64,000 nucleotides of DNA from Streptomyces sp. NBC_01571. GTDB lineage: Bacteria; Actinomycetota; Actinomycetes; Streptomycetales; Streptomycetaceae. Below are positions 5,905 to 26,744 of this stretch, in pieces; the stretch's first letter is position 1, and every line of letters begins with the position of its first letter. The stretch covers positions 6,386,001-6,450,000 of the forward strand of contig NZ_JAPEPZ010000001.1 of NCBI RefSeq assembly GCF_026339875.1, written 5' to 3'. The notes beneath the pieces are model-generated. The model was not told the DNA's origin. It searched no databases and was given only the letters and a program-made list of their open reading frames with translations. Both the position numbers and the translations under genes were made by a program.

Positions 5905-8900
5905 GTGCATGCGTACGAGACTTCCCCCGGCCGGGTGAACGGGGAATTCACCCGGACCTCATCTCCAGGGGGAGACTTGCGCAGACAAGTGAAAAGAGCG
6001 TGCGCGGCGATCGTCGCCACGGCGGCGTCCGTGGCTCTGGCGGCGGGAATGACCAGCCCGGCGTCCGCGAGGGTCCCGGCACACGCCGGACACGTCAACA
6101 GCGCTTCCGCGGCCGGGATCACGGCCAAGCACCGCATCACACTGATCACCGGCGACCGGGTGGTCGTCGACGCCAAGGGGCGTGTCGTCGGCCTCGAGCG
6201 GGCCAGGGGCCGTGCGCACGTGCCCGTCCAGATCCGCAAGGCCCGCGGCCACACCCTCGTGGTGCCGGCGGACGCGCAGGCGCTGATAGCCGCCGGCAAG
6301 CTGGACCGGCGGCTCTTCGACGTCACCGAGCTGAACACGGCCGCGACCCGCGCCTCCCAGAAGCAGGGTCTGAAGGTCATCGTCGGCTACCGGGGAGCCG
6401 CGACGGCCGCCCGGGCCGACGTCCGCGGGTCGGGCACGCTCCGCCGGACCCTGAAGTCCCTGAACGCGGACGCCGTGCGGACACCGCAGCGGGACGCGGC
6501 CGAGCTCTGGTCCGCGGTCACCGACCACGGCCGGGCGGCCTCCGGCATCGCGCACGTCTGGCTGGACGGCGTGCGCAGGGCGAGCCTCGACAAGTCCGTG
6601 CCGCAGATCGGCGCCCCCAAGGCCTGGGCCGCCGGGTACGACGGCAAGGGCGTCAGGATCGCCGTCCTCGACACCGGTGTCGACGCGACGCACCCGGACC
6701 TCAGGAACCAGGTGATCGCGTCCCGGAACTTCTCCGCCGCCGCCGACACCACCGACCACTACGGCCACGGCACGCACGTCGCGTCCATCGCGGCGGGCAC
6801 CGGTGCCAAGTCGCACGGGAAGTACAAGGGCGTCGCGCCCGGCGCCAAGATCCTCAACGGCAAGGTTCTCGACGACACCGGAAGCGGTGACGACTCCGGC
6901 ATCCTCGCGGGCATGGAGTGGGCGGCCGACCAGGGCGCCGACGTCGTCAACCTGAGCCTCGGCGGCCCGGACACCCCCGACGTGGACCCACTGGAGGCCG
7001 AGGTCGACAAGCTCTCGGCCGAGAAGGGCATCCTCTTCGCGATCGCGGCGGGCAACGCAGGCCCCGAGTCCATCGGCTCGCCGGGCAGCGCGGACGCCGC
7101 GCTCACCGTCGGCGCCGTGGACGACCACGACAAGCTGGCGGACTTCTCCAGCACCGGCCCCCGCCTCGGCGACGGCGCCATCAAGCCGGACGTCACCGCC
7201 CCCGGCGTCGACATCACCGCGGCCGCCGCCCCGGGCAGCGTCATCGACACGGAGGTCGGCGAGAAGCCCGCCGGCTACCTGACCATCTCGGGCACGTCGA
7301 TGGCGACCCCGCATGTCGCGGGCGCCGCCGCCATCCTCAAGCAGGAACACCCGGACTGGACGTACACCGAGCTCAAGGGCGCGCTGACCGGCTCCGCCAA
7401 GGGTGGCTCGTACACGCCGTTCCAGCAGGGCGCGGGCCGGATCGCCGTCGACGCGGCGATCAAGCAGACCGTGATCGCCGATCCGTCCTCGGTGAGCTTC
7501 GGCGTCGCGCGGTGGCCGCACACCGACGACACGGCCCTGACCAGGCAGCTGACGTACCGCAACCTCGGCACGAAGGACATCACCCTGGCCCTCGGGGTCA
7601 AGGCCACCGACCCCAAGGGCCACACGGCACCCTCGGGCTTCTTCAAGCTCGCCGCCACCACCCTCACCGTCCCGGCCGGCGGCCGGGCGTCCGTCGGCGT
7701 CGCCGCGAACACCAGGCTCGGCGGCAGTCTCGACGGCGCGTACGCCGCGTACGTGACGGCGACGGGCGGCGGTCAGTCGGTGCGCACGGCGCTCGCGGTC
7801 GAGCGTGAGCCGGAGTCGTACGACGTCACCCTGAAGTACGTCGACCGCGCCGGTGAGACGCCCACGCACCTCACCGACCTGGAGGGCTACACCGGGCTCG
7901 GCGCCGACCGGGACTACGCGTCGCAGAACACCGCGGACAGCGTGACCCTCCGGGTACCCAAGGGCAGGTACCTGCTCAACTCCCTCTCCGTGCAGGACCT
8001 GGTGGAGGCGAAGGGCGGGGTCGACTGGCTGGTCCGGCCCCGGCTGGACGTCACCGGGAACACCACGCTGACGCTGGACGCCCGCACCGCAGAGGGTGCG
8101 GACATCACGGTGCCGGACGCGCGGGCAGAGCCGTTGTCGGCGGTCGTCAACTACTTCGACGACACGACGGGCTTCGGGCTCGGCCTCGGGCTGGACTCCT
8201 TCCGGAACCTGCGGATGGCGCACCTCGGCCCGTCGCTCACGCCCGGTCTGTTCCAGAGCTGGGCCGGACAGTGGACCAAGGGCGCCGGCGCCGAGTACGA
8301 CACCTTCACCGGCGCGAAGGTCAGCAGGCTCCAGGGCGCCCACGTCAAGCACTACAAGGCGGGCGAACTGGCCAAGGTGCGGGCGGACATGGGAGCCGCG
8401 GCCGCCGGCAAGACGGGCGCGATCACCGCGTTCGGCTTTCTGCCCGACGACGACAGCGTCACCGTCGCCGTCGACCAGAAGCTGCCGGGCGCGCGCACGC
8501 TCTACCTGTCGACCGGTGAAAAGGTCCAGTGGACGTTCGACTTCGAGCAGCACGCCGGCCCCGACGCCACCGGATTCCCGGTCGTCGACGCCTACTACAC
8601 GCTCGGCGACCCGCAGATCTTCAAGGCGGGCACGAGCTACACGAAGCGGTTCAACACGGCCGTCTTCGGCCCGAAGATCAGCGCCGACTTCGGTGTCTTC
8701 CGGGAGGGCGACAACCTCGTCGGATACCTGCCACTGTTCGCCGACGGAAGCACCCACGCCGGGTCCTCGCAGTTCAGCTCGGTCACCACGACGCTGTACC
8801 GCAACGGGACGAAGGTCGGATCGAACGACGACCCGCTCTTCGGGGACAAGGAGTTCAAGGTCCCGGCCGCCCAGGCGGAGTACCGGCTGACGGCCTCGGT

Positions 8901-9288
8901 CAAGCGCAGTGTGAAGGTCGCCGCGGCCTCCACGCGGATCGACGCGAGCTGGACCTTCAGGTCCAAGAAGACCGACTTCGCGAAGCTGCCCGCCTCCACG
9001 GTCCGCTTCAACGCCGCGACCGGCCTGGACAGCCGCGTCGAAGCCGGCAAGAAGGTCACCATCCCGCTCACCGTGCAGGGCTCGGCCGCGGGCCGGAACC
9101 TCAAGTCACTGTACGTGTACGTCTCGTACGACTACGGCCAGACCTGGACCATGCTCAAGGTCAAGGACGGAAAGATCACCGTCAAGAATCCGGCGAAGGG
9201 CAAGGGCATCTCCTTCCACGCGAAGATCACCGACAAGCAGGGCAACAAGTCGACGGTCTCGATCTACAACGCGTACTACGGAAAGTGA
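5905..9288 (+). CDS. secreted subtilisin-like serine protease (S8), large
   Basis: About 1127 residues. The N-terminus has a long basic region and then a signal peptide (AAIVATAASVALAAG, cleaved near ASA-RVP). Next come a pro-region (about 60-225), the S8 catalytic domain and a long C-terminal extension rich in beta-type sequence (about 530-1127). The catalytic triad is visible: Asp256 in VLDTGVDATHPDL, His288 in GHGTHVA and Ser465 in GTSMATPHVAG. The length and C-terminal beta modules resemble the large extracellular Streptomyces S8 peptidases. I preferred GTG 5905 because GGAGG lies 7 bases upstream. TTG 5977 (N-terminus LRRQVKRA) is a serious alternative that would make the second dyad untranslated. 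Confidence 0.9.
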   Translation: MHAYETSPGRVNGEFTRTSSPGGDLRRQVKRACAAIVATAASVALAAGMTSPASARVPAHAGHVNSASAAGITAKHRITLITGDRVVVDAKGRVVGLERARGRAHVPVQIRKARGHTLVVPADAQALIAAGKLDRRLFDVTELNTAATRASQKQGLKVIVGYRGAATAARADVRGSGTLRRTLKSLNADAVRTPQRDAAELWSAVTDHGRAASGIAHVWLDGVRRASLDKSVPQIGAPKAWAAGYDGKGVRIAVLDTGVDATHPDLRNQVIASRNFSAAADTTDHYGHGTHVASIAAGTGAKSHGKYKGVAPGAKILNGKVLDDTGSGDDSGILAGMEWAADQGADVVNLSLGGPDTPDVDPLEAEVDKLSAEKGILFAIAAGNAGPESIGSPGSADAALTVGAVDDHDKLADFSSTGPRLGDGAIKPDVTAPGVDITAAAAPGSVIDTEVGEKPAGYLTISGTSMATPHVAGAAAILKQEHPDWTYTELKGALTGSAKGGSYTPFQQGAGRIAVDAAIKQTVIADPSSVSFGVARWPHTDDTALTRQLTYRNLGTKDITLALGVKATDPKGHTAPSGFFKLAATTLTVPAGGRASVGVAANTRLGGSLDGAYAAYVTATGGGQSVRTALAVEREPESYDVTLKYVDRAGETPTHLTDLEGYTGLGADRDYASQNTADSVTLRVPKGRYLLNSLSVQDLVEAKGGVDWLVRPRLDVTGNTTLTLDARTAEGADITVPDARAEPLSAVVNYFDDTTGFGLGLGLDSFRNLRMAHLGPSLTPGLFQSWAGQWTKGAGAEYDTFTGAKVSRLQGAHVKHYKAGELAKVRADMGAAAAGKTGAITAFGFLPDDDSVTVAVDQKLPGARTLYLSTGEKVQWTFDFEQHAGPDATGFPVVDAYYTLGDPQIFKAGTSYTKRFNTAVFGPKISADFGVFREGDNLVGYLPLFADGSTHAGSSQFSSVTTTLYRNGTKVGSNDDPLFGDKEFKVPAAQAEYRLTASVKRSVKVAAASTRIDASWTFRSKKTDFAKLPASTVRFNAATGLDSRVEAGKKVTIPLTVQGSAAGRNLKSLYVYVSYDYGQTWTMLKVKDGKITVKNPAKGKGISFHAKITDKQGNKSTVSIYNAYYGK

Positions 9289-16662: not shown

Positions 16663-17607
16663 CTACTCGGCACCGCTGTCGCCGAACGTCCACACGGCGT
16701 GGTCACCCGGCCCGACGACGAGCTTCGAGTGACCGATCCGTTCAACGTGACGGTCCTTCACCGGCCGGTTGAGCGACAGTTCGATCCGCTGCAGGCCCGC
16801 GTCGTCGCGCGCTACGGCGTCGAACCGGATCGCGGTGCCGCCACGCTCCGCGACGACGCCACCGTCCGGCACGGTCCGGACGGCGAACCCGCCGGCCCGG
16901 AGCAGCGGCACGGTGTCGGCGAGGTCGCCCTCGGTGACCGCGAGGCGGACGGAGGTCACGTCACGCATCAGATGGTTGCGGTAGTCGTCGGACAGGTAGC
17001 GTTCCCGGCCGACGTCACCGGGGAAACCCGCCGGCTCGGTGTTGCCGCGCGGGTCGGCGAAGTACTCCGGGCGGTACTCCATCGCCCAGGTTCCGAAGGC
17101 GTCGTACTCGGCGGTGGTGAGGACGGCGTCGAACCACGGAACGGGGACGCCGTCACCGAAGTCACGTGTCTGGAGGAACTCGACGGGGTCAGCGACGCCC
17201 TCGTCCTTCAGGCGCTCCGTGACCGTCGCCAGGTCTCCGGCACGCTCGGTCGACAGGCCCAGCCCGGCGGAGCCGAGGGTGCCGTCCTGGCCGGCGACGT
17301 CACCGACCCCCAGCAGCTCGAGGTAGGTCTCGTGGCCCATCAGATAACGACCGGTCCAGGTCTGACCGTCGGTACCGGTGGTGGTGCGGACCTGGAAGTT
17401 GGCGAAGTCCCGCAGATAGTCGGAGTGCTCGATGGCGTCGGCGGTCTCCCGGTCGAACACACCGTAGGAGTGGTTGAAGAACAGCAACTGCCGATCGTGC
17501 GACGACCGGTTCTGCTCGGCCTGCGCCGTCCCCACGCCACCCCCGATCGCACCGGCGAGGGTCACAGCGAGCAAGGTGATCATCCGTAATGTCCGGCGAA
17601 TCAGCAT
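16663..17607 (-). CDS. secreted DUF5829 family protein
   Basis: A 314-residue exported protein. It has a signal peptide (MLIRRTLRMITLLAVT, then a Gly/Ala core, cleaved near AQA-EQN). The conserved N-terminal part LLFFNHSYGVFDRETADAI matches my recollection of DUF5829, a family of unknown function in Streptomyces. Several short motifs resemble glyoxalase-fold proteins (RLAVTEGDL, GGTAIRF near the end), so it could be a secreted VOC-like protein. Two start codons (MLIRR and MITLL) are possible. It is probably transcribed alone, from a promoter near the dyad at 17676-17696. Confidence 0.75.
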   Translation of the reverse strand: MLIRRTLRMITLLAVTLAGAIGGGVGTAQAEQNRSSHDRQLLFFNHSYGVFDRETADAIEHSDYLRDFANFQVRTTTGTDGQTWTGRYLMGHETYLELLGVGDVAGQDGTLGSAGLGLSTERAGDLATVTERLKDEGVADPVEFLQTRDFGDGVPVPWFDAVLTTAEYDAFGTWAMEYRPEYFADPRGNTEPAGFPGDVGRERYLSDDYRNHLMRDVTSVRLAVTEGDLADTVPLLRAGGFAVRTVPDGGVVAERGGTAIRFDAVARDDAGLQRIELSLNRPVKDRHVERIGHSKLVVGPGDHAVWTFGDSGAE

Positions 17608-17713: not shown

Positions 17714-17763
17714 GGTGCGGGTGCGGGTGCGGGTGCGGGTGCGGGTGCGGGTGCGGGTGCGGG
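17714..17763. repeat. simple repeat of GGTGCG, about 8 copies
   Basis: An uninterrupted hexamer tract of roughly 50 bp in an intergenic region between the DUF5829 gene and the DUF4291 pseudogene. It has no support as coding sequence. Confidence 0.9.
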
Positions 17764-18019: not shown

Positions 18020-18482
18020 TCATCCATGCAGGTGGGCGATGAGCTCGTCCTGGCCGGTGTGAAGCCCTCCGGGGGCAGCAGCCGGGCGGCCGGGCGGCTG
18101 AGTCCAGGTCGCCGCCGCTGACGAGGGCGTGGACCTCGTGGGCGAGTGGGGCGACGTCGCGGACGGCGATCGTCCACTCGTCCGCGTAGCGTCGCGCCGC
18201 CCCACCCGAGAGGCCCAGTTGCGGGGACCGGTACGGCAAGGGCCGCAGCCGCAGGTCCCGCTCGGGGTCCCACTGCACGCGCGCGGGCGCCCGCTTCAAC
18301 TCCCGCTTCCAGGCGGCCTGGTTCTCGTACAGGCCGCGTGCACGGTGCGAAAGGCACGCGTGGCGCAGCGCCCACTCGAAGCCCTCACGGGTGATCTCGA
18401 CGGCCAGAACGGTTTCCTGACCCTCCTTCGACCCCCAGCCGGAGCGGTACATCATCCACAGAAAGCCCGGCTTGATCCATGT
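18020..18482 (-). pseudogene. 3' part of a split DUF4291 gene
   Basis: This minus-strand segment encodes about residues 47-197 of a DUF4291 protein, beginning at TWIKPGFLWMMYRSGW. It is closely similar over its whole length to the intact copy at 25930-26523. It has no start codon, and the first 46 codons are missing. Upstream of the Thr-Trp codons the sequence changes abruptly to the dyad repeat at 18469-18494. An 8-bp tandem duplication (two copies of GCCGGGCG on the plus strand, 18081-18096) breaks the frame near the end, and at least one more frame change follows before the original stop at 18020. The missing 5' part appears on the same strand at 26601-26744. Confidence 0.88.
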
Positions 18483-18494
18483 CAAGCCTTGCTC
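18469..18494. repeat. dyad repeat copy A (island end inside DUF4291)
   Basis: GGCTTGA (18469-18475, belonging to DUF4291), TCCATG, then the island-side arm TCAAGCCTTGCTC (18482-18494). Similarity to the other copies continues rightward as ACAGACCTTTG. The right arm matches copies B and D; the left side is DUF4291 coding sequence. The centre is 3 bp shorter than in copies B, D and E. Confidence 0.8.
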
Positions 18495-18835
18495 ACAGAC
18501 CTTTGACGCCAACCCATCGACCGGGCGCACGTCCAACGGATCGGGGGACCTCCTGCGGCGGCGCGCAGCTCCTCGGCAGATGGCCTTCGACTGCGCCGTA
18601 TGTCGAAGGCGAGCGGGAGCATCTGGTCGCCCTCGGAGTCGAGGCCGGCGAGCAGGTTCGCGACCCTGCCCCTTGCGGCGCGGTTCGCCGGGGCCGGAGG
18701 TGGGCGCAGGGTCCGTCCGGCGATCTCCTTGTAACGGGCGGTGAGGCGTTCGAGGGCACCATGGGCCTGTCCGGTTCGCGGCGAGTTGTCTTGCTCGCGC
18801 AGTGGGCCGTTGCTAAGCCTTGGGCACTCGACTCC
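18495..18835 (-). other. unrecognised region with a truncated minus-strand frame
   Basis: 341 bp with no gene I can name. A minus-strand frame (18482-18856) has coding-like composition in its middle (LLAGLDSEGDQMLPLAFDIR). It ends with RSVSKA and a TGA supplied by dyad copy A, so it may be the remnant of a gene cut by the island boundary. I do not recognise the family. Confidence 0.35.
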
Positions 18836-20242
18836 ATGGAGGACGCTGTGTATCAAGAGCCCCCTCTTCCCGCTCCTCCGCGTTCACGTGCCCGGGGATT
18901 CATCTGCGCCGTCGCGGCGATCGCCCTCGTGACGCTCACCGCCGCGACAAGTCCCCCCGACGCGCACACCCGGACCGCGGCGGACCCGGCAGCCGTGGTC
19001 CGCGAGTGGAACGCCATCGCCACCGACACGATCAAGACCAGCCTCGGCCCACGCCCCTCCGGGCAGGCAGTGATCTGGGAGGGATTCGTCTCCGTCGCCG
19101 TGTACAACGCCGTGGTGGGGATCGAAGGCGGCTACGCCCTGTACAAATGGCACCAGCGCGGTCCGGCCAAGGCATCCTCCGCGGCGGCCGCCGCCACCGC
19201 GGCCCACGACATGCTGCTCACCTACTTCCCCGCCTTCAAGGAGCGGCTCGACACCGCCTACGCGGACTCGCTCGCCGCTCTTCCGGCCGGTCATACCAGA
19301 GACCAGGGCGTGGACTACGGAAAGCGCGCCGCCGCCCGCATCATCGAACTCCGGGAAGGGGATGGAAGGTTCGCGGACGTTCCGTTCACCGCTTCCCCGG
19401 CACCGGGAGTCTGGCGGCCCACCCCTCCCGCGTTCCAGCCCTTCATCGACACCTGGCTCGCCAGGCTCCGCCCCCTCCTGCTCGCCTCCCCGCAGCAGTT
19501 CCGGCCCGGCGGACCACCCGCCCTCTCCTCGGCCGCTTACGCCGAGGATGTCCGGGAACTGAAGACCATGGGCGTGAAGACCGGCTCGAGCAGGAGCGCG
19601 CAGCAGACCGAGACCGCCCTCTTCTTCAGCGGCAACCTGGTCGAACAGGTCCAGATCGCCGTACGGGACCACGCCGCCCGGCACCGGCTCGGCATCGCCG
19701 AGACGGCCCGGCTGTTCGCCGCGGTGAACGCGTCGGCGACCGACGCCGTCGTCACGGCATGGGACGCCAAGCTCCACTACGGCACCTGGCGGCCGATCAC
19801 TGCCATCCGCCTCGCCGACACCGACGGCAACCCCGCGACGACGGCGGACCCGGCCTGGGAGCCGCTGCTCCTCACCCCGCCACACCCGGACTACGTCGCC
19901 GGCCATACGACCGTCGCCGCCGCCGTGGCACGCGCCCTGACCGGCGTCCTCCGCACCTCGCACATCGACCTCCACGTCCCCTCCGAGGTCACCGGCACCA
20001 CGCGGTTCTACGGGTCCGCCGACGACCTCAACCAGGACGTCGTCGACGCGCGTGTGTGGGGCGGCGTCCACTCCCGCACGGCGGACGTGGTCGGCTGCCG
20101 GGCCGGCACCCGCGTGGCCGCCTGGGCGCTGGACCACTACTTCCAGCCGGTCGCCAAGGACGGCACCCAGCGGTCCCTGCCGACCCGAGCGGCTCGGCAG
20201 GGCAGCGTCGCCGAGCCGGAGTGCGGCGACGACACCGACTGA
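18836..20242 (+). CDS. vanadium-dependent haloperoxidase / PAP2-superfamily protein
   Basis: A 468-residue exported protein with a hydrophobic signal (FICAVAAIALVTLTAAT) after a short Pro-rich N-terminus. The vanadate/phosphate-binding set is visible in order: Lys and Arg in KLHYGTWRP (about residue 313 onward), AGH with His357 in DYVAGHTT, and VHSR with His412 in RVWGGVHSR. This is the haloperoxidase spacing rather than that of short PAP2 phosphatases. The biochemical activity (halide oxidation or phosphatase) cannot be decided from motifs. It is the only intact gene between dyad copies A and B and ends in its own terminator, so it behaves as a free-standing cargo gene. Confidence 0.85.
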   Translation: MEDAVYQEPPLPAPPRSRARGFICAVAAIALVTLTAATSPPDAHTRTAADPAAVVREWNAIATDTIKTSLGPRPSGQAVIWEGFVSVAVYNAVVGIEGGYALYKWHQRGPAKASSAAAAATAAHDMLLTYFPAFKERLDTAYADSLAALPAGHTRDQGVDYGKRAAARIIELREGDGRFADVPFTASPAPGVWRPTPPAFQPFIDTWLARLRPLLLASPQQFRPGGPPALSSAAYAEDVRELKTMGVKTGSSRSAQQTETALFFSGNLVEQVQIAVRDHAARHRLGIAETARLFAAVNASATDAVVTAWDAKLHYGTWRPITAIRLADTDGNPATTADPAWEPLLLTPPHPDYVAGHTTVAAAVARALTGVLRTSHIDLHVPSEVTGTTRFYGSADDLNQDVVDARVWGGVHSRTADVVGCRAGTRVAAWALDHYFQPVAKDGTQRSLPTRAARQGSVAEPECGDDTD

Positions 20243-20253
20243 ACCACGGAGCC

Positions 20254-20286
20254 GCAGAGGACCCGGCGTCGAGCCGGGTCCTCTGC
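20254..20286 (+). terminator. terminator after the haloperoxidase gene
   Basis: A 14-bp perfect stem (GCAGAGGACCCGGC and its complement) with a 5-base loop, 12 bases after the stop codon. Confidence 0.9.
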
Positions 20287-20368
20287 GGATCCTGCCTCGA
20301 GCACTGGATCAGCGGGGAGACCTTTTGCTTGCAGGGGCCGGCCACTTCCGACAGAGGGAAAAGGCCGT

Positions 20369-20403
20369 GAACGCGCCTTGATGATCCATGTCAAGCCGTG
20401 TTC
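20369..20403. repeat. dyad repeat copy B (internal island boundary)
   Basis: Arm GAACGCGCCTTGA (20369-20381), 9-bp centre TGATCCATG, arm TCAAGCCGTGTTC (20391-20403). The arms are inverted repeats of each other at 11 of 13 positions. To the right, ATAGTCCTTTGCG is shared with copy D. It lies in the intergenic gap between the haloperoxidase terminator and the NmrA-type gene. Confidence 0.9.
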
Positions 20404-20536
20404 ATAGTCCTTTGCGCGGAGGTGCCCGTTCGGCTGCTTCCTGATCCAGGTGCCTTACGACATGTTCAGGACGACCGGTACGACGCCAAGGGGTCCAGCG
20501 GAGCGGTGAATACTCAGTCGTCGCGTCTGCCTGAGC

Positions 20537-21427
20537 TCAGGGGGTGCCACGCGCGGTGTTCGGTGACGGCCACCAGGCCGCGTCGGAGATCGGGGTCGCC
20601 GGTGAGCCGGTGAGCCGGGGGACGACGTCGGTGACCGAGGAGATCTCGCCCTTCTCGATTGCTTGGTACCAGGAGATCCAGGTCTCGATCTGTTCCCCGC
20701 TCATGCCCTGCCGCCAGCGCCGCGAGAAGGCTTGCTCAAGGGTCTCTGGTTCGAAGCGGTAGGGTCGGCCGGTGGCCGTGGCGATCCGGGTAACCGCTTC
20801 GTGGAGGGTCAGGGCCTCGGGCCCCGTGATCTCCAGGATTGCGCCGTCGTGCTCGGAGCGGGGACGCTCGTCGAGGGTGACGGCAGTGATCACGTCCGCG
20901 ATGTCCTCGTGGGTGGCGAAGGCGGCCCGGCCGGTGCTCGCGGGGCCGCTGACGACGAATCCCTTGTCGGCGAGGGCGGCCGGTGTCGACGTGTAAAAGC
21001 CCGCCCGGAGCACCGTGTGGCGGATCCCGGCTCCGGCCAGGAACTGTTCGGTCAGCCACTGGTCGCGGGCGTTCAGGTAGGTGGCGGTGGGCGAGGCGCC
21101 GACGAGGGACACGTACAGGACCCGGTCCACGCCGACCGCGATCGCGGCCTCGACCGCCGTGGCGTGTTCCTCCAGCCGGCTTCCCGTGCGGTGTCCGGAG
21201 ACCAGGATGAGCGTCGAGGCACCCTCCAGCGCCTCGCGCATCGCCGAGGCGTCGCCGTAGCCGGCGGGACCGCGTCGCTGTGCGCCGGGCAGGTCGGGCA
21301 TGCGGTCGGGGCTGCGTCCGACGAGGAGTTGGGGGACGCCACGGTCGGCGAGGCGGACCGCGATCCGGCTGCCCAGTGCTCCGGTCACTCCGGTGACCGC
21401 CACCGTGGCGTAATGCTTGTCAGACAT
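20537..21427 (-). CDS. NmrA-like NAD(P)H-binding reductase (QOR2-type)
   Basis: A 296-residue atypical short-chain dehydrogenase. The N-terminal nucleotide motif VAVTGVTGALGSRIA is the GxxGxxG of the NmrA/NAD(P)H quinone oxidoreductase-2 group. SLVGASPTATYLNARDQ replaces the classical YxxxK, as in that group. Likely roles are quinone or small-molecule reduction, or NAD(P)H sensing. The start ATG 21425-21427 has AAGGGA upstream. It lies in the B-C module of the island with a muconolactone-isomerase-like gene, an NMT1-like protein and a TetR regulator, all on the minus strand. Confidence 0.82.
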   Translation of the reverse strand: MSDKHYATVAVTGVTGALGSRIAVRLADRGVPQLLVGRSPDRMPDLPGAQRRGPAGYGDASAMREALEGASTLILVSGHRTGSRLEEHATAVEAAIAVGVDRVLYVSLVGASPTATYLNARDQWLTEQFLAGAGIRHTVLRAGFYTSTPAALADKGFVVSGPASTGRAAFATHEDIADVITAVTLDERPRSEHDGAILEITGPEALTLHEAVTRIATATGRPYRFEPETLEQAFSRRWRQGMSGEQIETWISWYQAIEKGEISSVTDVVPRLTGSPATPISDAAWWPSPNTARGTP

Positions 21428-21648
21428 GAATTTCCCTTGTTCTGGGGCCGATGTCGACTGCGGCACCCGTGATTCCTATCAAATCTGGCGGAAGTGTCGA
21501 TACGGTAGATTCCCTCCTCCGCTGTACGATCGCGCGGCAGTTCACCCGCATGCGCGTCCTGCGGCTCCGTCACCGGCCGACTCCCGGCTCGGTGCGGCAG
21601 CCGTGAGCGACGCACCGAGCCGGGGCGGTGGGCCACCGCACCGGAAAG

Positions 21649-21942
21649 TCAGCCGGCCAGGCCCGGATCGTTGGGATGCGGCTGCAGGGTGGTGATCACC
21701 GCGGTGACCCAAGGCCACAGCGGCAGACTTCCGAGGACCTTCTCACGCAGCTCTATCTCGTTGTCGGCGCGCCATATGGCGATGACGCGAGGGTCCTCGG
21801 CCGTGCGCCACAGCCGGGACAGGTGACCTCCGGCGGTGAGCTCCTTGGCTCGCACAGCTTCGGCGGCGCGGCGACGGTCGACTTCTGCCTGGTCGGTTCC
21901 TTCAGGCACGTTGACGGTCACCTCCACCAAAAACTCCATCAT
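21649..21942 (-). CDS. muconolactone Delta-isomerase-like protein
   Basis: A 97-residue protein with the ferredoxin-like small fold of the muconolactone isomerase (MIase) family. It begins MEFLVEVTVNVPEG and has the conserved HLSRLWR and WPWVTAVITTLQPHPNDP ends. True isomerases act in the beta-ketoadipate pathway on muconolactone. Related family members in other clusters act as dimeric alpha/beta-barrel proteins of unclear activity. No other catechol-pathway gene is present, so the substrate is open. The first or second Met may be the start. Confidence 0.8.
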   Translation of the reverse strand: MMEFLVEVTVNVPEGTDQAEVDRRRAAEAVRAKELTAGGHLSRLWRTAEDPRVIAIWRADNEIELREKVLGSLPLWPWVTAVITTLQPHPNDPGLAG

Positions 21943-22328
21943 CTTCTTTTCCTCTCTTGCTTCTCAGGGGATTTCTTCGGGAGGGGATGCAAGATTTCGC
22001 GACCGCCTGCTGGAGGCTCTCGGCGAACGCCTGGCTCGCACCTGGCCGGTGGTAGGGGTATTGCCTCCGAGCCGTCCGAGCGGGCACTGCCCGCGCCGGC
22101 CGTCGCGATATCGTGGACGTCTCGCACGAGGAGGCTTAGCGGCTCTATGGGCCGAGTCACTGGCTATCGAGTCGGTCGACGGCCCTGTGATCAACCCGCC
22201 AGGACGGGCGACAACACGGCGCGCCATCTTGGGATTAGGGCACGGCGACCCGGAACCCGCCGCTTAAGCGTGTCGCGCGACTTCGAGGCCCGGGTCGGGC
22301 AGGCCGACCCCGCACCGGCCACTCGCGA
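21943..22328. other. 386-bp gap without a supported gene
   Basis: Short frames exist on both strands, but none shows a recognisable domain or a ribosome site. The region upstream of the isomerase-like gene probably carries its promoter. The base composition is a little less GC-rich than the neighbouring genes. No repeat was noticed. Confidence 0.4.
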
Positions 22329-23234
22329 TCACTGAACGTATTCGGGCGGGCTCGCCTGGGGGGTGGTGGTTGCGGTGCGGTAGAACTCGGCTGCCGTGAA
22401 CGTGGCGGGGACTCCCAGTTCGGCAGAGATCGCCGTGATTGCGTTGATGCCGATGGCGAGGTCGACTTGGCCATCGGTGGTGAAGGCCGGTGCGATGAAC
22501 GCCTCGTAATGGGCCCGGACTTCTTCCGTGGTGTGTCGGCCAAGGAACGTGTGCAGGTGTCGCACTGTGGTGTCGGGATCGTCGTGGATCACCTGCAGGG
22601 CGCGCCGGTGGGCTCGTACAACGGCCTGGACTGCGGGATCGTCCGGCTTGGTGTAGGTGGGGTCGACGGCCACGCCCACGGTGGGGATTTGGAAGTGGTC
22701 GCCGACAAAGGCCAGTACCCGCCAGCCGTGCTCGCCGGCCACTGCCGCCGGTGCCATGGTGTCGCCGATCACAGCGGCGTCGATGCTGCCGTCCTGCAAT
22801 CCGCGCAGGTCCATGCCGTAGTCGCCGGGCCAGCGGACGATGGTCTGGACGTCTCGGTCCGGGTCGAGGCCGGCCTGGCGCAGCACAATCCGGGTGAAGC
22901 AGCCAGGTCCTGTGTGCGGGGGGTGTACCGCCAGTCGTCGGCCGTGCAGGTCTGCCAGCGAGGTCAGGCCGGGGCGGGCGAGGAACCAGAACAGGGGACG
23001 GTAGGTGTTCACATTGAGTGCGACCCAGGGGATGTCATCCCTCAATCGGGACAGCAATGTCCGGCCGAGCCCGATGACTGCACCGTGGCGCAGTCGCTCT
23101 GCATCCCAGGTGCAGCCGTCGCGCAGGGCCACGTGGACGCCCTCTTCGGCGTAGAAGTCCTCCTGATCGGCAATGTAGGTGACCAGTTCCTCGTGCGGGC
23201 CCCGCCCGACGTAGGCGAGATCGATCATGTGCAT
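22329..23234 (-). CDS. NMT1/SsuA-like substrate-binding-fold protein without signal peptide
   Basis: A 301-residue protein of the NMT1/THI5-like periplasmic-binding fold (LRHGAVIGLGRTLLS, then LADLHGRRLAVHPPHTGPG and DYGMDLRGLQDGSIDAAVIGD). Such proteins usually bind small amines, sulfonates or pyrimidine precursors for ABC importers. Here there is no lipobox or signal peptide, and no permease or ATPase gene is adjacent. A cytoplasmic binding or enzymatic role is therefore possible (THI5 itself is an enzyme). I chose ATG 23232-23234, which has AGGGA upstream; an earlier ATG in the same frame is less likely. It shares the island module with TetR, MIase-like and NmrA-like genes. Confidence 0.72.
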   Translation of the reverse strand: MHMIDLAYVGRGPHEELVTYIADQEDFYAEEGVHVALRDGCTWDAERLRHGAVIGLGRTLLSRLRDDIPWVALNVNTYRPLFWFLARPGLTSLADLHGRRLAVHPPHTGPGCFTRIVLRQAGLDPDRDVQTIVRWPGDYGMDLRGLQDGSIDAAVIGDTMAPAAVAGEHGWRVLAFVGDHFQIPTVGVAVDPTYTKPDDPAVQAVVRAHRRALQVIHDDPDTTVRHLHTFLGRHTTEEVRAHYEAFIAPAFTTDGQVDLAIGINAITAISAELGVPATFTAAEFYRTATTTPQASPPEYVQ

Positions 23235-23348
23235 GAAGGCTTCCCTATGTGTGAAGGTGTGCTGGATGGGCCCTGCCATCCCGTACGCAGCAAGGACACG
23301 CGCAGCAACCCGCAGCGGGCCGAGGAATACCCTGGCCGGTTGCCCCGG

Positions 23349-24026
23349 CTACGGGCTCACCTCGTACTCGTCGTCGCGGGCCGCTGGAACGACCGCTCGG
23401 GGCACTTCCTCGGCGACGCCGCTGTGCGCAGGACGGATCGCCCCGTAGAGAACAGTGTTGACGGTCGCTCGCAGCAGATCGGCCGCTGTCCAGTGGAGCT
23501 CGCGCGGCAACTGTGAAGTGACCAGCCGCTCCAATGCGCCTCGGGTGATCTCACTCAGCAGTTCGGGCGGCGCCGACAGCAGTCCTCGCAGGTGTGCCTC
23601 CCGGAACAGCTCGTCGAGCCGCCTGTAGACCACCGCGTCCATGCGCTGCTCTACGTAGTGGCGCAGCATCGCATCGCCCCGTCCAGTTGCGAGCTGAGCC
23701 GCGCCAATCCGTTCGAGTTCACTGCCTGCCGCAATCAGGAACTGCTCGACCCGCACGCCGAACGGCTGTGCCTCTGCCTCCTCGACCGCCCGCAGTCTGC
23801 TCTCCACCGCCGCGAACTTCCGATCCAGTACCTCGGCCAGCAGGCTGCGCTTGTCCGGAAAGTAGCGGTAGATGGTCTTCTTGCTCATCCCGAGCTCGCG
23901 CGCGAGGTCGTCCATGCTCACCCCCGCGAAACCCGAAGCGAAGAACAGTCGCCCAGCCGCTTCCGCGATCACGTTGGCACGCTGCCGATCTCGATCGGAA
24001 ACTTCCGAACCTCGTTGGGTTTCCAT
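23349..24026 (-). CDS. TetR/AcrR family transcriptional regulator
   Basis: A 225-residue repressor-type regulator. The N-terminal helix-turn-helix is at about residues 15-65 (GVSMDDLARELGMSKKTIYRYF), followed by an all-helical ligand domain. It is the most upstream gene of the minus-strand set that continues with the NMT1-like, MIase-like and NmrA-like genes, and is a natural candidate for their control. The gene lies 154 bases from dyad copy C, at the edge of its module. Confidence 0.88.
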   Translation of the reverse strand: METQRGSEVSDRDRQRANVIAEAAGRLFFASGFAGVSMDDLARELGMSKKTIYRYFPDKRSLLAEVLDRKFAAVESRLRAVEEAEAQPFGVRVEQFLIAAGSELERIGAAQLATGRGDAMLRHYVEQRMDAVVYRRLDELFREAHLRGLLSAPPELLSEITRGALERLVTSQLPRELHWTAADLLRATVNTVLYGAIRPAHSGVAEEVPRAVVPAARDDEYEVSP

Positions 24027-24179
24027 AGTTTCCAGATTGGGCTTCCGTCCCTCGCACTGTCAAGACACGCGGACTTGGGCTTGTAGCCCGTCAGGAAACG
24101 CGTGTTCTGTCCGCGATCTCCACGAAAGTGTCCGCTTGACCTGCTGGTTTCCTGTGGGCCCAGCGGTGCAGGTGGTTGT

Positions 24180-24215
24180 GAACGCGCTTTGACGACCCCA
24201 CGTCCAGCCTCGCTC
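24180..24215. repeat. dyad repeat copy C (diverged internal boundary)
   Basis: Arm GAACGCGCTTTGA (24180-24192), 10-bp centre CGACCCCACG, arm TCCAGCCTCGCTC (24203-24215). This is the most diverged of the five copies but keeps the same order and orientation. It separates the TetR module from the Mrr-type remnant. Confidence 0.7.
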
Positions 24216-24228
24216 ATGATCCTCTTCC

Positions 24229-24927
24229 GGGCTCCGTCTCCTGGGCCTCAAGAAGTTCGTCACCGTGTTCGATCGCACCGGACAGCTGGTGCTGGACTGG
24301 GAGTTGCCCGGCTACAGCGTGGTCCCTGACGTCAAGTCCGTTCGATACGTGTCTGGGACCGACCAGGACAAGGAGACCGCGCGCCCAGTGGGCCGGCGTC
24401 GCGCCCTGTACCGGGAGGTGCTCGCGCAGTGCGTGCTTCTCGTTCTGCACGAGCTCTTCGCCGCGGATGAGCTGGGCGCGCTCGAGTCGGTGACACTGAA
24501 CGGGTTCGTGGATGGGCATGACCCTACGACGGGCCGGCGTGGCCAGATCCACCTGGCGACCGTGATGGCCTCGGTCTCGATGTTCCGTGGCCTGCACCTG
24601 GCGCAGGTGGACGCGAGCAGTCGTCTGGCCGACGCACTCCGCGGGCAGCTCTCGGCCCGCCCGGACCAACTCTCGCCGGTACGGCCGAGTCGTCGGCCGC
24701 AGGATGTCGGGAACCGTGTGGTCGCGCATGGCAGCGATGAGGAACCTGACCTGTACGACATGGATCCGATCGCCTTCGAGGATCTCGTCGCCGATCTCTT
24801 CCGGGCCATGGGGATGCAGGCGGTCACGACCCAGCGCTCCAACGACGGCGGTGTGGACGTCGACGCGCTGGATCCGGCACCGACCCGCAGCAGCCAGCTG
24901 TGTCTGAGGTCTGTGAACGCTGCATGA
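24229..24927 (+). pseudogene. internal fragment of an Mrr-type restriction endonuclease-like gene
   Basis: The frame reads without interruption from just after dyad C to a TGA inside dyad D. It has no convincing start (the first usable ATG/GTG is inside the domain), and the coding similarity ends with the sequence. Near its C-terminus it has MDPIAFEDLVADLF...RSNDGGVDV, the first half of the Mrr catalytic domain including the Asp of GGVDV. The following Glu/Gln-x-Lys (QAKR-type) strand and the rest are missing. The final residues RSVNAA come from the dyad arm. It therefore looks cut at both ends by repeats C and D and cannot be an active nuclease. Confidence 0.78.
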
Positions 24928-24949
24928 TGATCCACGTCAAGCCGTGTTC
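24915..24949. repeat. dyad repeat copy D (internal island boundary)
   Basis: Arm GAACGCTGCATGA (24915-24927), 9-bp centre TGATCCACG, arm TCAAGCCGTGTTC (24937-24949). The right arm and the next 9 bases are identical to copy B. On the left, GGTCTGT extends the arm and mirrors the ACAGACC to the right of copy A. Confidence 0.9.
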
Positions 24950-25038
24950 ATAGTCCTTTTGCGAGCTGGCGTCACACATCCCTGGCCGCACACGAGGCCC
25001 GATGCTAAATCCTGGGCGTACGTCGTAGCCTTTGCCTC

Positions 25039-25812
25039 GTGACCAGCGAGAACCAGCAGACTAGCGATCTGACGCCTGATGAACTGCCCCATCACCAGTC
25101 GTTGTTGGAGGGCACGGCTTGGGCCTCACTCGGCACCGCGAGAGGGAACGGCGGATTTCTGTCGGCCACGCTGCCCCGCCTTCTCGATGCCGACCCGACG
25201 GTTCAGATCCGGGCCATCAGCGAGCTGGAGCCGGTATGTCATCAGAACAGCTTCTACGAAGCCACGCTCCCCGTGGCGCTGTACGTGGCCGCGATCCTCG
25301 CCCACCCCGCGACGGCGGCCGTCGGGCCTGGCCGTCGGGCTGACTCGGAAAGAGACTGTCCGGTGAGGGCGGCCCTGCTGGACTGGCTTGGATCACTCGC
25401 CTACGACGCCGACGACGAGTGCCTTGCCATCGCCGAGCGTCACTTCGAAGGTGACGACCTCGACGACTATCCAGAAATGCGTGTCTTTCTGGACCACCGC
25501 CCCACGTTCTACCGTGCCGTTTCAGCTTACCTGGGCCACGAAGACACTGCTGTTCGTGAGGCCGCGGTCGTCGCCGCCATCCCCTTGACTGAGCATCCTG
25601 CCCTCATTGGCCACAGAGACGAACTTGGACGCCGCATCCATCACCTCCTCGCTACAAGTACCAACCGCTACAACCGCAACCGCTGTCTGGACGCACTCAA
25701 GAACTGGATCTACGACATCGCTGCCGTGGAGAGTCCCGCTGACGTTGCCGCACGCGTTCGGTACGTCCGTGACGTTTGGACTGGTGGCTGTACGGAGGAA
25801 CCCCCGTTCTGA
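25039..25812 (+). CDS. HEAT-repeat-like hypothetical protein
   Basis: A 257-residue soluble protein from GTG 25039. It is mostly helical, with repeated paired-helix segments (DPTVQIRAISELEPVCH, EDTAVREAAVVAAIPL) of HEAT type. I recall close relatives scattered in Streptomyces genomes, usually near toxin/immunity or hypothetical genes, and a role as an immunity or adaptor protein is possible but unproven. It is the first gene after dyad copy D and lies on the plus strand together with the intact DUF4291 gene 117 bases downstream. Confidence 0.72.
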   Translation: MTSENQQTSDLTPDELPHHQSLLEGTAWASLGTARGNGGFLSATLPRLLDADPTVQIRAISELEPVCHQNSFYEATLPVALYVAAILAHPATAAVGPGRRADSERDCPVRAALLDWLGSLAYDADDECLAIAERHFEGDDLDDYPEMRVFLDHRPTFYRAVSAYLGHEDTAVREAAVVAAIPLTEHPALIGHRDELGRRIHHLLATSTNRYNRNRCLDALKNWIYDIAAVESPADVAARVRYVRDVWTGGCTEEPPF

Positions 25813-25929
25813 CGTCGGACGCCACTTGGCCAGTACGGGCGGCTGCCTGCTGCCAGCGTGCTCCGTCACGTCTGTCAGCGGTCGAAAATTCGGTGGTCGC
25901 CTGAGCCGGCCGGGCTCACGCTGTACGCC

Positions 25930-26523
25930 ATGGAAGAACCGCACCGCAGGATCCGCGCGCTCCACACGGCGTCCACGATCACCGTCTACCAGGCCTACCG
26001 CCCGGAGATAGGCGGCCCCGCCGCCCGCAAAGGCCGTTTCCCCGCCGCTTGGAAGCCTGACCGCATGACGTGGATTAAACCCAGTTTTATGTGGATGATG
26101 TACCGCTCCGGCTGGGGCATGAAGGAGGGTCAGGAGACCGTCCTCGCCGTCGAGATCACCCGCGACGGATTCGACTGGGCGCTGCGCCATGCCTGCCTGT
26201 CGCATTACGTCCGCGGACTGCATCCCGATCGCAGCGCCTGGCAGCGTGACCTCAAGCGCGCGCCGGCCCGCGTCCAGTGGGATCCCGAACGCGATCTGCG
26301 CCTGCGTCCCCTGCCGTACCGCTCGCTGCAACTGGGGCTCTCGGGCGAGGCGTCGACGCGGTACGCGGACGAGTGGATCGTCTCCATCAGTGACGTGACC
26401 CCGCTCGCCCACGAGGTCCACGCACTCGTCAAGGACGGAGACCTGGACGCGGCGAGCCGACTACTTCCTCAGGAGCAGGGATACCCCGCCGGCGAAGAGA
26501 TCCTGGCCCACCTGAGTTCCTGA
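25930..26523 (+). CDS. intact DUF4291 family protein
   Basis: A 197-residue protein beginning MEEPHRRIRALH, with the family's QAYRPEIG, MTWIKPSFMWMMYRSGW (from about residue 46) and FDWALRHA motifs. The function of DUF4291 is unknown; the protein is small, soluble and conserved from actinobacteria to fungi. This copy lies inside the 8.1-kb insertion, on the strand opposite to the split copy, and its own Met-Thr-Trp-Ile-Lys site is unbroken. It could compensate for the disrupted copy. The ATG 25930 aligns with the start of the split gene at 26744. Confidence 0.85.
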   Translation: MEEPHRRIRALHTASTITVYQAYRPEIGGPAARKGRFPAAWKPDRMTWIKPSFMWMMYRSGWGMKEGQETVLAVEITRDGFDWALRHACLSHYVRGLHPDRSAWQRDLKRAPARVQWDPERDLRLRPLPYRSLQLGLSGEASTRYADEWIVSISDVTPLAHEVHALVKDGDLDAASRLLPQEQGYPAGEEILAHLSS

Positions 26524-26583
26524 CCGGCAACAGGAGCACAACCGCCGGGACCACCCACAAGCCACATCGCGGCAAACGTCTGC

Positions 26584-26618
26584 GAACGCGGCTTGATGAT
26601 CCACGTCATCCTGTCCCG
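26584..26618. repeat. dyad repeat copy E (other island end inside DUF4291)
   Basis: Island-side arm GAACGCGGCTTGA (26584-26596), centre TGATCCACG, then TCATCCTGTCCCG (26606-26618), which is DUF4291 coding sequence on the minus strand. It is the mirror case to copy A: here the left arm is repeat and the right side is gene. Confidence 0.85.
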
Positions 26619-26744
26619 CTTCCACGCCGCGGGGAAACGGCCTTCCCGGACGGCGGGCAGGCCGATCTCCGGCGAGTACGCCTGGCAGACGGTGACCGTG
26701 GACTCCCCGTAGACCGCACGGATTGCGCGACGAGGTTCTTCCAT
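26601..26744 (-). pseudogene. 5' part of a split DUF4291 gene
   Basis: This minus-strand segment encodes residues 1-48 of a DUF4291 protein (MEEPRRAIRAVYG, then QAYSPEIG, ending MTW). It then runs into the dyad repeat, where the frame continues as IIKPRSQTF without family similarity. The upstream flank also resembles the upstream flank of the intact copy (both end in YAM before the start). Codon 48 is exactly where the 3' part at 18020-18482 takes up, on the same strand. The two pieces together give one full-length protein. Confidence 0.88.

Follow-up and report, generated by a model that had tools for sequence, protein, structure and literature searches.

A probable non-autonomous cassette array inserted in a DUF4291 gene of Streptomyces sp. 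NBC_01571

The window analysed here, a stretch of 64,000 nucleotides from Streptomyces sp. NBC_01571 (contig NZ_JAPEPZ010000001.1, positions 6,386,001 to 6,450,000), was found to contain a DUF4291 gene split in two by an island bordered by halves of one inverted-repeat sequence (dyad). The island is probably a non-autonomous cassette array, inserted at an attB site inside DUF4291 and mobilised in trans by the serine integrase of an actinomycete integrative and conjugative element (AICE). This reading is carried by the recurrence of the dyads, the structure of the junctions, the unbroken gene copies, the homology of the cassette units, the position of the crossover, the arms shared with AICE sites and the target of one integrase clade, all established by comparison of sequences.

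The two host DUF4291 pieces were found 8.1 kb apart on the minus strand, meeting opposite halves of one dyad. The A junction was found to contain a gene-left half followed by a dyad-right half, and the E junction a dyad-left half followed by a gene-right half. These junctions and the coordinates of the two pieces and of an intact copy at 25930 had been described in a first-pass annotation and were borne out. Its further statement that the host pieces join into one full-length protein did not hold. The 3′ piece was in frame only to about codon 177 and the C-terminus lay in another frame, because of which the host copy looks like a pseudogene. Of the three inner dyads that had been called complete, B and D were full, whereas C was degenerate with indels (alignment score 23, against 39.5 for B and 39 for D) and fell under the 40-bit profile cut-off. 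Since the C-D interval holds an internal fragment of an Mrr/type IV restriction family, C is taken to be a worn or rearranged boundary. The break point lay inside the conserved RMTWIKPSF motif of DUF4291, and R45-F53 did not vary among 26 aligned proteins, the majority of them selected through DNA spanning the motif itself. The dyad core, with up to 3 mismatches, was matched three times in the window (0.02 expected in shuffles) and 14 times in the whole genome against 10 for the reversed pattern, the three best matches being those of this locus and the rest being at noise level.

Recurrence of the dyads and position of the crossover

The core CTTGATGATCCAYGTCAAG, with at most one mismatch, was found at 34 sites in 19 of 392 Streptomyces genomes, followed by the absence of any match for the reversed-pattern control. 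More than one core site was present in nine of these 19 dyad genomes, in clusters with spacings of 0.6-6.4 kb on a single strand and contig, and one additional core site was present on a second replicon of genome G301 (genomes and loci are numbered with G and L). A stricter pattern, run over 84,980 species, gave 23 stretches, namely 21 Streptomyces records and two of 'Actinobacteria bacterium OV320'. Further sites were located with a 55-nt profile built from 52 sites, and the scoring of 58 loci gave 71 dyads (above 45 bits), 19 E junctions (from a nine-nt profile) and 35 A junctions, the last including those of integrase-bearing inserts. These counts are not fully independent, as some loci are close relatives (L062/L113, L072/L106). 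The attB in DUF4291, the attL- and attR-like hybrid ends, the attP-like inner dyads and the different cargo of each interval, all proposed earlier for the window, hold there and recur in other species. The single-island picture is amended to a recurrent cassette system, with the same target also used by a family of serine-integrase AICEs.

A pattern covering either the left junction or an uninterrupted site was matched in 88 of the 392 genomes, and an unbroken DUF4291 gene was present in 26 of the 30 loci fetched with it. None was found at the exact neighbourhood of the window. Four relatives (L227-L230), with an adjacent hydrolase of 77-81% identity, contained no DUF4291 in flanks of about 1.5 kb, and in G024 the hydrolase neighbour common with the window (90%) adjoined a DUF4291 5′ half and a larger array.

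Among plasmid records, one true dyad was found on Streptomyces cadmiisoli plasmid NZ_CP030074 (L060 10077-10131), together with one further, half-site-like match. The dyads or half-sites of L058, L060, L063 and L072, one of them plasmid-borne and all without a DUF4291 match in the stretch read, may point to other targets or carriers. In viral contigs, the strict dyad pattern gave no match and none of the seven loose-pattern matches reached 20 bits on the profile, and in phage records the window dyad gave no match and the consensus matched once, weakly (E=0.3), a virus record of 4.3 kb. A phage or viral source of the dyads was rejected on these results.

The arms of the dyads were found to lack covariation, with a paired value of 0.791 among 64 sites against 0.788 in shuffles, 144 of 500 of which reached it. 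Because the arms do not covary, the palindrome is read as duplex DNA, and a hairpin (attC) reading was rejected on the same ground.

For the crossover, the 26 attB sites came from a pattern fixing GATCCA and are uninformative on those letters, and the test was repeated on 17 gene copies retrieved through protein similarity, with three additional matches left out as A junctions. Two places left of the core, C was found in 12 of 19 E junctions and in 35 of 71 dyads, and at the next position T was found in 2 of 19 and 9 of 71, respectively, whereas the gene copies contained T and C at these positions in 17 of 17. The letter right of the core was C in 16 and T in 3 of the E junctions, C in 15 and T in 2 of the gene copies, and T in 43 of the 71 dyads. 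The A junctions contained a gene-like T left of the core in 33 of 35. The core itself was conserved as C in 71 of 71 and A in 68 of 71 dyads, and as CA in 17 of 17 gene copies. Since the letters of the E and A junctions switch between dyad and gene make-up there, strand exchange is best placed, from the sequences, in the CA dinucleotide, which is also the centre of the 6-nt spacer of the AICE attP. A 2-bp crossover is a mark of serine recombinases, and here the crossover was found confined to the 2-bp att centre, with exceptions in junction letters that are listed with the points weighing against the reading. The site of about 50 bp was found to contain inverted half-sites of about 25 bp, the right half being 25 nt ending in CCTTT and the left half mirrored. 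Half-sites of 25 bp have been described for the attP of the LI integrase (PMC3783163).

Cassette units and integrative elements at the same target

The site-to-site intervals (n=67) were found to range from 0.6 to 7.0 kb (median 1.47 kb, quartiles 1.1 and 2.1 kb), five of them being single cassettes directly between A and E, and at least nine sites were present in one array (L065). Sequence conservation ended at the dyad edges. Gene families were counted inside arrays, or within 4 kb where an array end was missing. A family of about 225 aa was shared by 13 loci (arrays of L057-L113; one scanned member gave no Pfam or PADLOC match), followed by a Mrr_cat + TerD protein of about 705 aa in 8 loci, which matched PADLOC mREase_IV (E 2.6e-58). 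DUF4291 in cassette orientation, whole or partial and matching the cassette copy of the window, was present in 13 other loci. The Mrr_cat/TerD protein at L108 7699-9816 and its in-array relatives represent a recurrent, possibly defensive cassette.

Among 587 inter-array alignments of at least 300 bp, 170 were found to end and 20 to start no more than 60 bp from the centre of a site in both loci, many of the 170 being host DUF4291 3′ halves at A junctions and not cassettes. Four whole cassettes were matched at both ends (e.g. L070 9412-10454 and L073 8030-9058, 91%). Cassettes could be much closer in sequence than the surrounding host genes (97% against 77% in L059/L068, 92% against 78% in L103 and the window), because of which they appear to move horizontally as units. 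No recombinase was found inside the cassettes. The 19 dyad genomes had 58 PF07508 matches, none of them between array sites, no PF00589 (tyrosine recombinase) was found inside the arrays of these genomes among the matches listed, and TraB, SpdB and Rep of AICEs gave no match between array sites. Apart from the AICE loci, they were matched only in the left flank of L059 and, weakly and for Rep, in L116. The loci L066, L175 and L184 were each found to contain two A junctions with a DUF4291 3′ half, which suggests insertion into more than one tandem DUF4291 copy. A recoded attB in the cassette-borne DUF4291 copies, as a protection against insertion, was considered and rejected, several copies keeping the host-type core.

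Larger insertions were found at the same DUF4291 point in L170 (7.6 kb), L178 (9.8 kb) and, both of 13.7 kb, L171 and L172. All four contained a protein of about 505 aa starting at the E end. In L171 this protein was found to contain PF00239, PF07508 and PF13408. L171, L172, L178 and L216 (G280) were found to contain TraB, SpdB-like and Rep genes, and are called AICEs from this gene content, which includes an integrase next to the att site. L170 gave no TraB, SpdB or Rep match and contained, inside the integrase insert, a member of the 225-aa cassette family (8392-8973, 63-68% identity). In the window array, the set of integrase, rep and traB genes was absent, with no TraB or Rep match between the sites and no clade integrase in the genome.

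Matches to the integrase at E<=1e-100 were present in 30 of the 392 genomes. A clade of at least about 78% identity was present in seven genomes, as full-length copies in G316, G306, G280, G094 and G241 and as degraded copies in G326 and G085, and adjoined the DUF4291 5′ half in 7 of 7. Degraded integrases beside DUF4291 were found in L219 and L220. In G306, an AICE (L172) occupied one DUF4291 copy and a single cassette (L173) another. No DUF4291 was found near five other serine integrases (L217, L218, L221-L223; 53-65% identity) whose surroundings were read. L217 and L223 contained the same AICE backbone, and the five offer a natural series for target-site evolution. In L059 (12-5587), the 3′ end of an already split DUF4291 was found to be abutted by an AICE whose backbone is nearly the same (TraB 88%, Rep 79%) and whose serine integrase is different (27%), a possible integrase swap to a neighbouring target. 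The L059 integrase was rejected as the cassette enzyme, being only 27% identical and outside the array, as was an integrase fragment of L075, which lay outside its array in a start context unlike that of the DUF4291 elements.

Read from CA towards the outside, the right halves were tGTCAAGCCGcGTTCACAGaCCTTT in 64 cassette dyads and tGTCAAGccGtGTTCatAGaCCTTT in five integrase-locus junctions, and the left halves were GaTCATCAAGCcGCGTTCACAG in the cassettes and GATCAAGCcGcGtTCATAG in seven integrase-linked ends. The arms and core, with the right half-site and crossover, were common to the cassette site and the AICE attP, whereas the left half-site of the cassettes was 3 bp longer, its motif being the AICE motif shifted 3 nt outward with the core-proximal letters kept. 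The AICE attP halves of four inserts scored 72-82 bits on the cassette profile with 3 nt added and less than 8 without. A six-nt profile was run too because the first profile was built on nine-nt sites, and it covered the same loci and eight loci read for their integrases. With the two profiles (n=26), the E ends with a six-nt spacer were found beside an integrase of the clade in 7 of 7 and those with a nine-nt spacer, containing the 3 extra nt, in 0 of 19, a contrast that depends on the six-nt run also, as the 19 were found with the nine-nt profile. Full six-nt dyads were not found in these loci, the three full-profile matches being two known A junctions and a similar one in L067.

In the LI integrase, the zinc-ribbon motif has been placed at bp 16-24 of the 25-bp half-site in attP, whereas in attB it lies 5 bp closer to the centre, and the motif positions have been proposed to decide which sites pair (PMC3783163). 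By analogy, the 3-bp outward shift is a change of the zinc-ribbon-position type, and it may enable stacking and change synapsis or directionality.

Proposed mechanism and rival explanations

A cassette unit is mostly 1-2 kb long and has one att site of about 50 bp. A circular cassette with one dyad would be inserted by the AICE integrase, acting in trans, at the CA in DUF4291, leaving gene/dyad and dyad/gene junctions, and later cassettes would enter at an end junction or an inner dyad, leaving full dyads between the cargoes. Most probably, the reaction is catalysed by the large serine integrase of the AICE family using the same attB, and the cassettes would use a modified attP with the longer left half-site. 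Where the AICE is absent, as in the window, the array would persist as a relic or as a reserve. With a complete DUF4291 cassette, the broken gene could be regained and a new attB provided. Repeated use of the target agrees with the two-A loci (L066, L175, L184) and with the AICE and cassette in separate copies in G306. It may be suggested, tentatively, that the whole forms an integron-like serine-integrase system in which the stretched attP moves the distal zinc-ribbon-type motif outward, with the contacts at the core retained, and may alter pairing, leading to stacking, and in which DUF4291 cassettes replace the gene and supply attB.

Several observations weigh against the reading of the island as a cassette array mobilised by the AICE integrase. 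Serine integrases normally join only attP with attB, because of which array growth needs an unusual site pairing, and the 3-bp difference could mean another integrase. No clade integrase was found in the genome of the window at E<=1e-100, and no array was found with one inside or adjoining it. The association of dyads with DUF4291, on which the earlier annotation had staked its proposal, was found at many loci, whereas five of the 19 dyad loci first fetched (L058, L060, L063, L072, L075) contained no DUF4291 match in the stretch read, L075 yet ending in an E-type junction. A pattern with two mismatches gave 24 matches in 12 named genomes and five control matches too. Two of the 35 A junctions (L181, L184) contained a dyad-like C on the left side of the core, and on its right side the letters of the A junctions (C 18, T 13, G 3, A 1) were intermediate between gene and dyad make-up. 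Three of the 71 dyads and one of the 35 A junctions were without the core A. L072 and L106 were 98% identical on both sides of the array and differed by indels not exactly at dyads. This pair was rejected as a case of precise cassette gain or loss, the breakpoints not being clean.

A second, related serine integrase, for example of a plasmid or phage outside the genomes searched and specific for the nine-nt sites, would make the AICE integrase a mere cousin of the true enzyme. It would fit the clean 3-nt difference in the E ends examined and the absence of the clade of at least 78% identity from all 19 dyad genomes. It is nevertheless unlikely, given a right half-site and crossover identical to those of the AICE, the lack of PF07508 matches between array sites and the lack of a profile-scoring dyad in viral contigs or a convincing one in phage records. 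The arrays could also be AICE remains, formed by tandem insertion at one attB and later decay, as defective AICEs (DAICEs) or by accretion of cis-mobilizable elements (CIMEs), with no separate cassette lineage. Such accretion and defective AICEs are known in Streptomyces (PMC9513070), the attB and arms are common to arrays and AICEs, integrases have decayed beside DUF4291 in L219 and L220, and L170, without TraB or Rep matches, has a cassette gene in common with the arrays. The recurrence of small units across different arrays, the absence of TraB, SpdB and Rep matches between array sites and the clean split of six-nt and nine-nt E ends by integrase presence make this origin quite improbable.

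Two tyrosine-recombinase explanations were considered highly improbable. In an integron, or a cluster of attC sites lacking an integron integrase (CALIN), IntI would act on folded attC sites, and the arrays do have small cargoes with one palindromic site per unit, whereas their arms are conserved in sequence and do not covary, the crossover maps to the 2-bp CA and no PF00589 was found inside arrays among the matches listed. Xer/dif-type modules moved by the host XerCD are just as improbable. Short modules between repeated sites do resemble the dif modules of Acinetobacter (PMC13141974), whereas the site measures about 50 bp, its spacer 9 nt (or 6 nt) and its crossover 2 bp, and the core was found in just 19 of 392 genomes.

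Features of the window, related systems and meaning

The features of the island are given in Table 1. The intact copy of DUF4291 in the D-E interval matched PF14124 (Pfam DUF4291) at E=3.7e-74, and the DNA of the cassette 1 gene was 92% identical to L111 and L103. Outside the island, a perfect GGTGCG hexamer tandem repeat was found at 17714-17761, between a minus-strand gene (16663-17607) and the DUF4291 3′ piece.

Table 1. Coordinates of the split DUF4291 gene, the att-like sites and the cargo genes in the window
Feature	Position	Strand	Remarks
Host DUF4291 3′ part	18485-18020	-	codons 46/47 onward; out of frame after about codon 177
A junction (attR-like)	18450-18504	+	gene-left half and dyad-right half, crossover CA
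Cassette 1 gene	18479-20242	+	mechanical open reading frame, true start probably downstream; no Pfam match
Dyad B, full cassette att site	20359-20413	+	9-nt spacer, 86 bits
B-C interval: NAD(P)-binding / NmrA protein	20537-21466	-	
B-C interval: muconolactone isomerase family	21649-21942	-	
B-C interval: NMT1-like substrate-binding protein	22329-23279	-	
B-C interval: TetR-family regulator	23349-24026	-	
Dyad C, degenerate with indels	24170-24225 (approximate)	+	boundary uncertain
C-D interval: internal fragment of the ~705-aa Mrr_cat / mREase_IV cassette family	24265-24927	+	
Dyad D, full cassette att site	24905-24959	+	87 bits
D-E interval: 257-aa cassette gene	25039-25812	+	no Pfam match; relatives in L075, L106
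D-E interval: intact cassette-borne DUF4291	25930-26523	+	orientation opposite to host gene
E junction (attL-like)	26574-26628	+	dyad-left half with 3 extra nt and gene-right half
Host DUF4291 5′ part	26601-26744	-	codons 1-48

In agreement with the first-pass annotation, which knew of no element family on this target, no report of DUF4291 as an insertion target was found in the open-licence literature, nor of serine-integrase cassette arrays in Streptomyces. The system is taken as accretion at an integrase site in an integron-like form, AICE accretion, defective AICEs and serine AICEs being already known. The DUF4291-site elements L171, L172, L178 and L216 resemble AICEs with a serine integrase, which are already known as a minority and made up 19 of the 144 AICEs of one survey (PMC3218068), and from which the cassettes differ in the absence of any int, rep or tra found in them and in the longer left half-site. 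CIMEs and defective AICEs are recombinase-less units at the attB of an autonomous element, and their movement by its integrase has been proposed (PMC9513070). The cassettes share with them the form of att-bounded units without recombination genes of their own, and differ from CIMEs in being small, stacked and recurring, with a site variant that was not found beside integrases.

Among more distant systems, small-cassette arrays with one palindromic site each are also formed by integron cassettes and CALINs, from which the duplex site, the 2-bp crossover, the serine recombinase (as suggested here) and the target inside a protein gene set the present arrays apart. Composite islands of the staphylococcal cassette chromosome (SCC) type contain a serine recombinase (Ccr), one chromosomal attB gene and tandem units, many without a recombinase, and SCC units are far larger than the cassettes here. 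Recombination of attP with attP has been reported for CcrA/CcrB, as well as for the A118 integrase (PMC3783163). The present arrays are unlike SCC islands in their target, DUF4291 and not rlmH, in the enzyme and phylum, and in the absence of PF07508 between array sites. The dif modules depend on XerCD tyrosine recombinases and 28-bp 11-6-11 sites, in contrast to the site of about 50 bp with a 9-nt spacer found here. The pdif/dif modules of Acinetobacter, which are plasmid-borne, are small units exchanged from plasmid to plasmid at short repeats (PMC13141974).

Arrays of cassettes are commonly taken to be integrons with a tyrosine recombinase, and the genus Streptomyces is better known for gene exchange by larger elements, whereas the data here point to small-cassette arrays at a serine-integrase site. 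A new attB is named, a conserved codon motif in DUF4291, and the natural contrast between the 6-nt attP of the integrase and the 9-nt site of the cassettes offers a ready-made test of the effect of half-site spacing on the directionality of serine integrases. The 55-nt tag is searchable and finds accessory and defence-like genes in Streptomyces genomes. If the reading is true, an integron-like system would have been built on a different class of recombinase.

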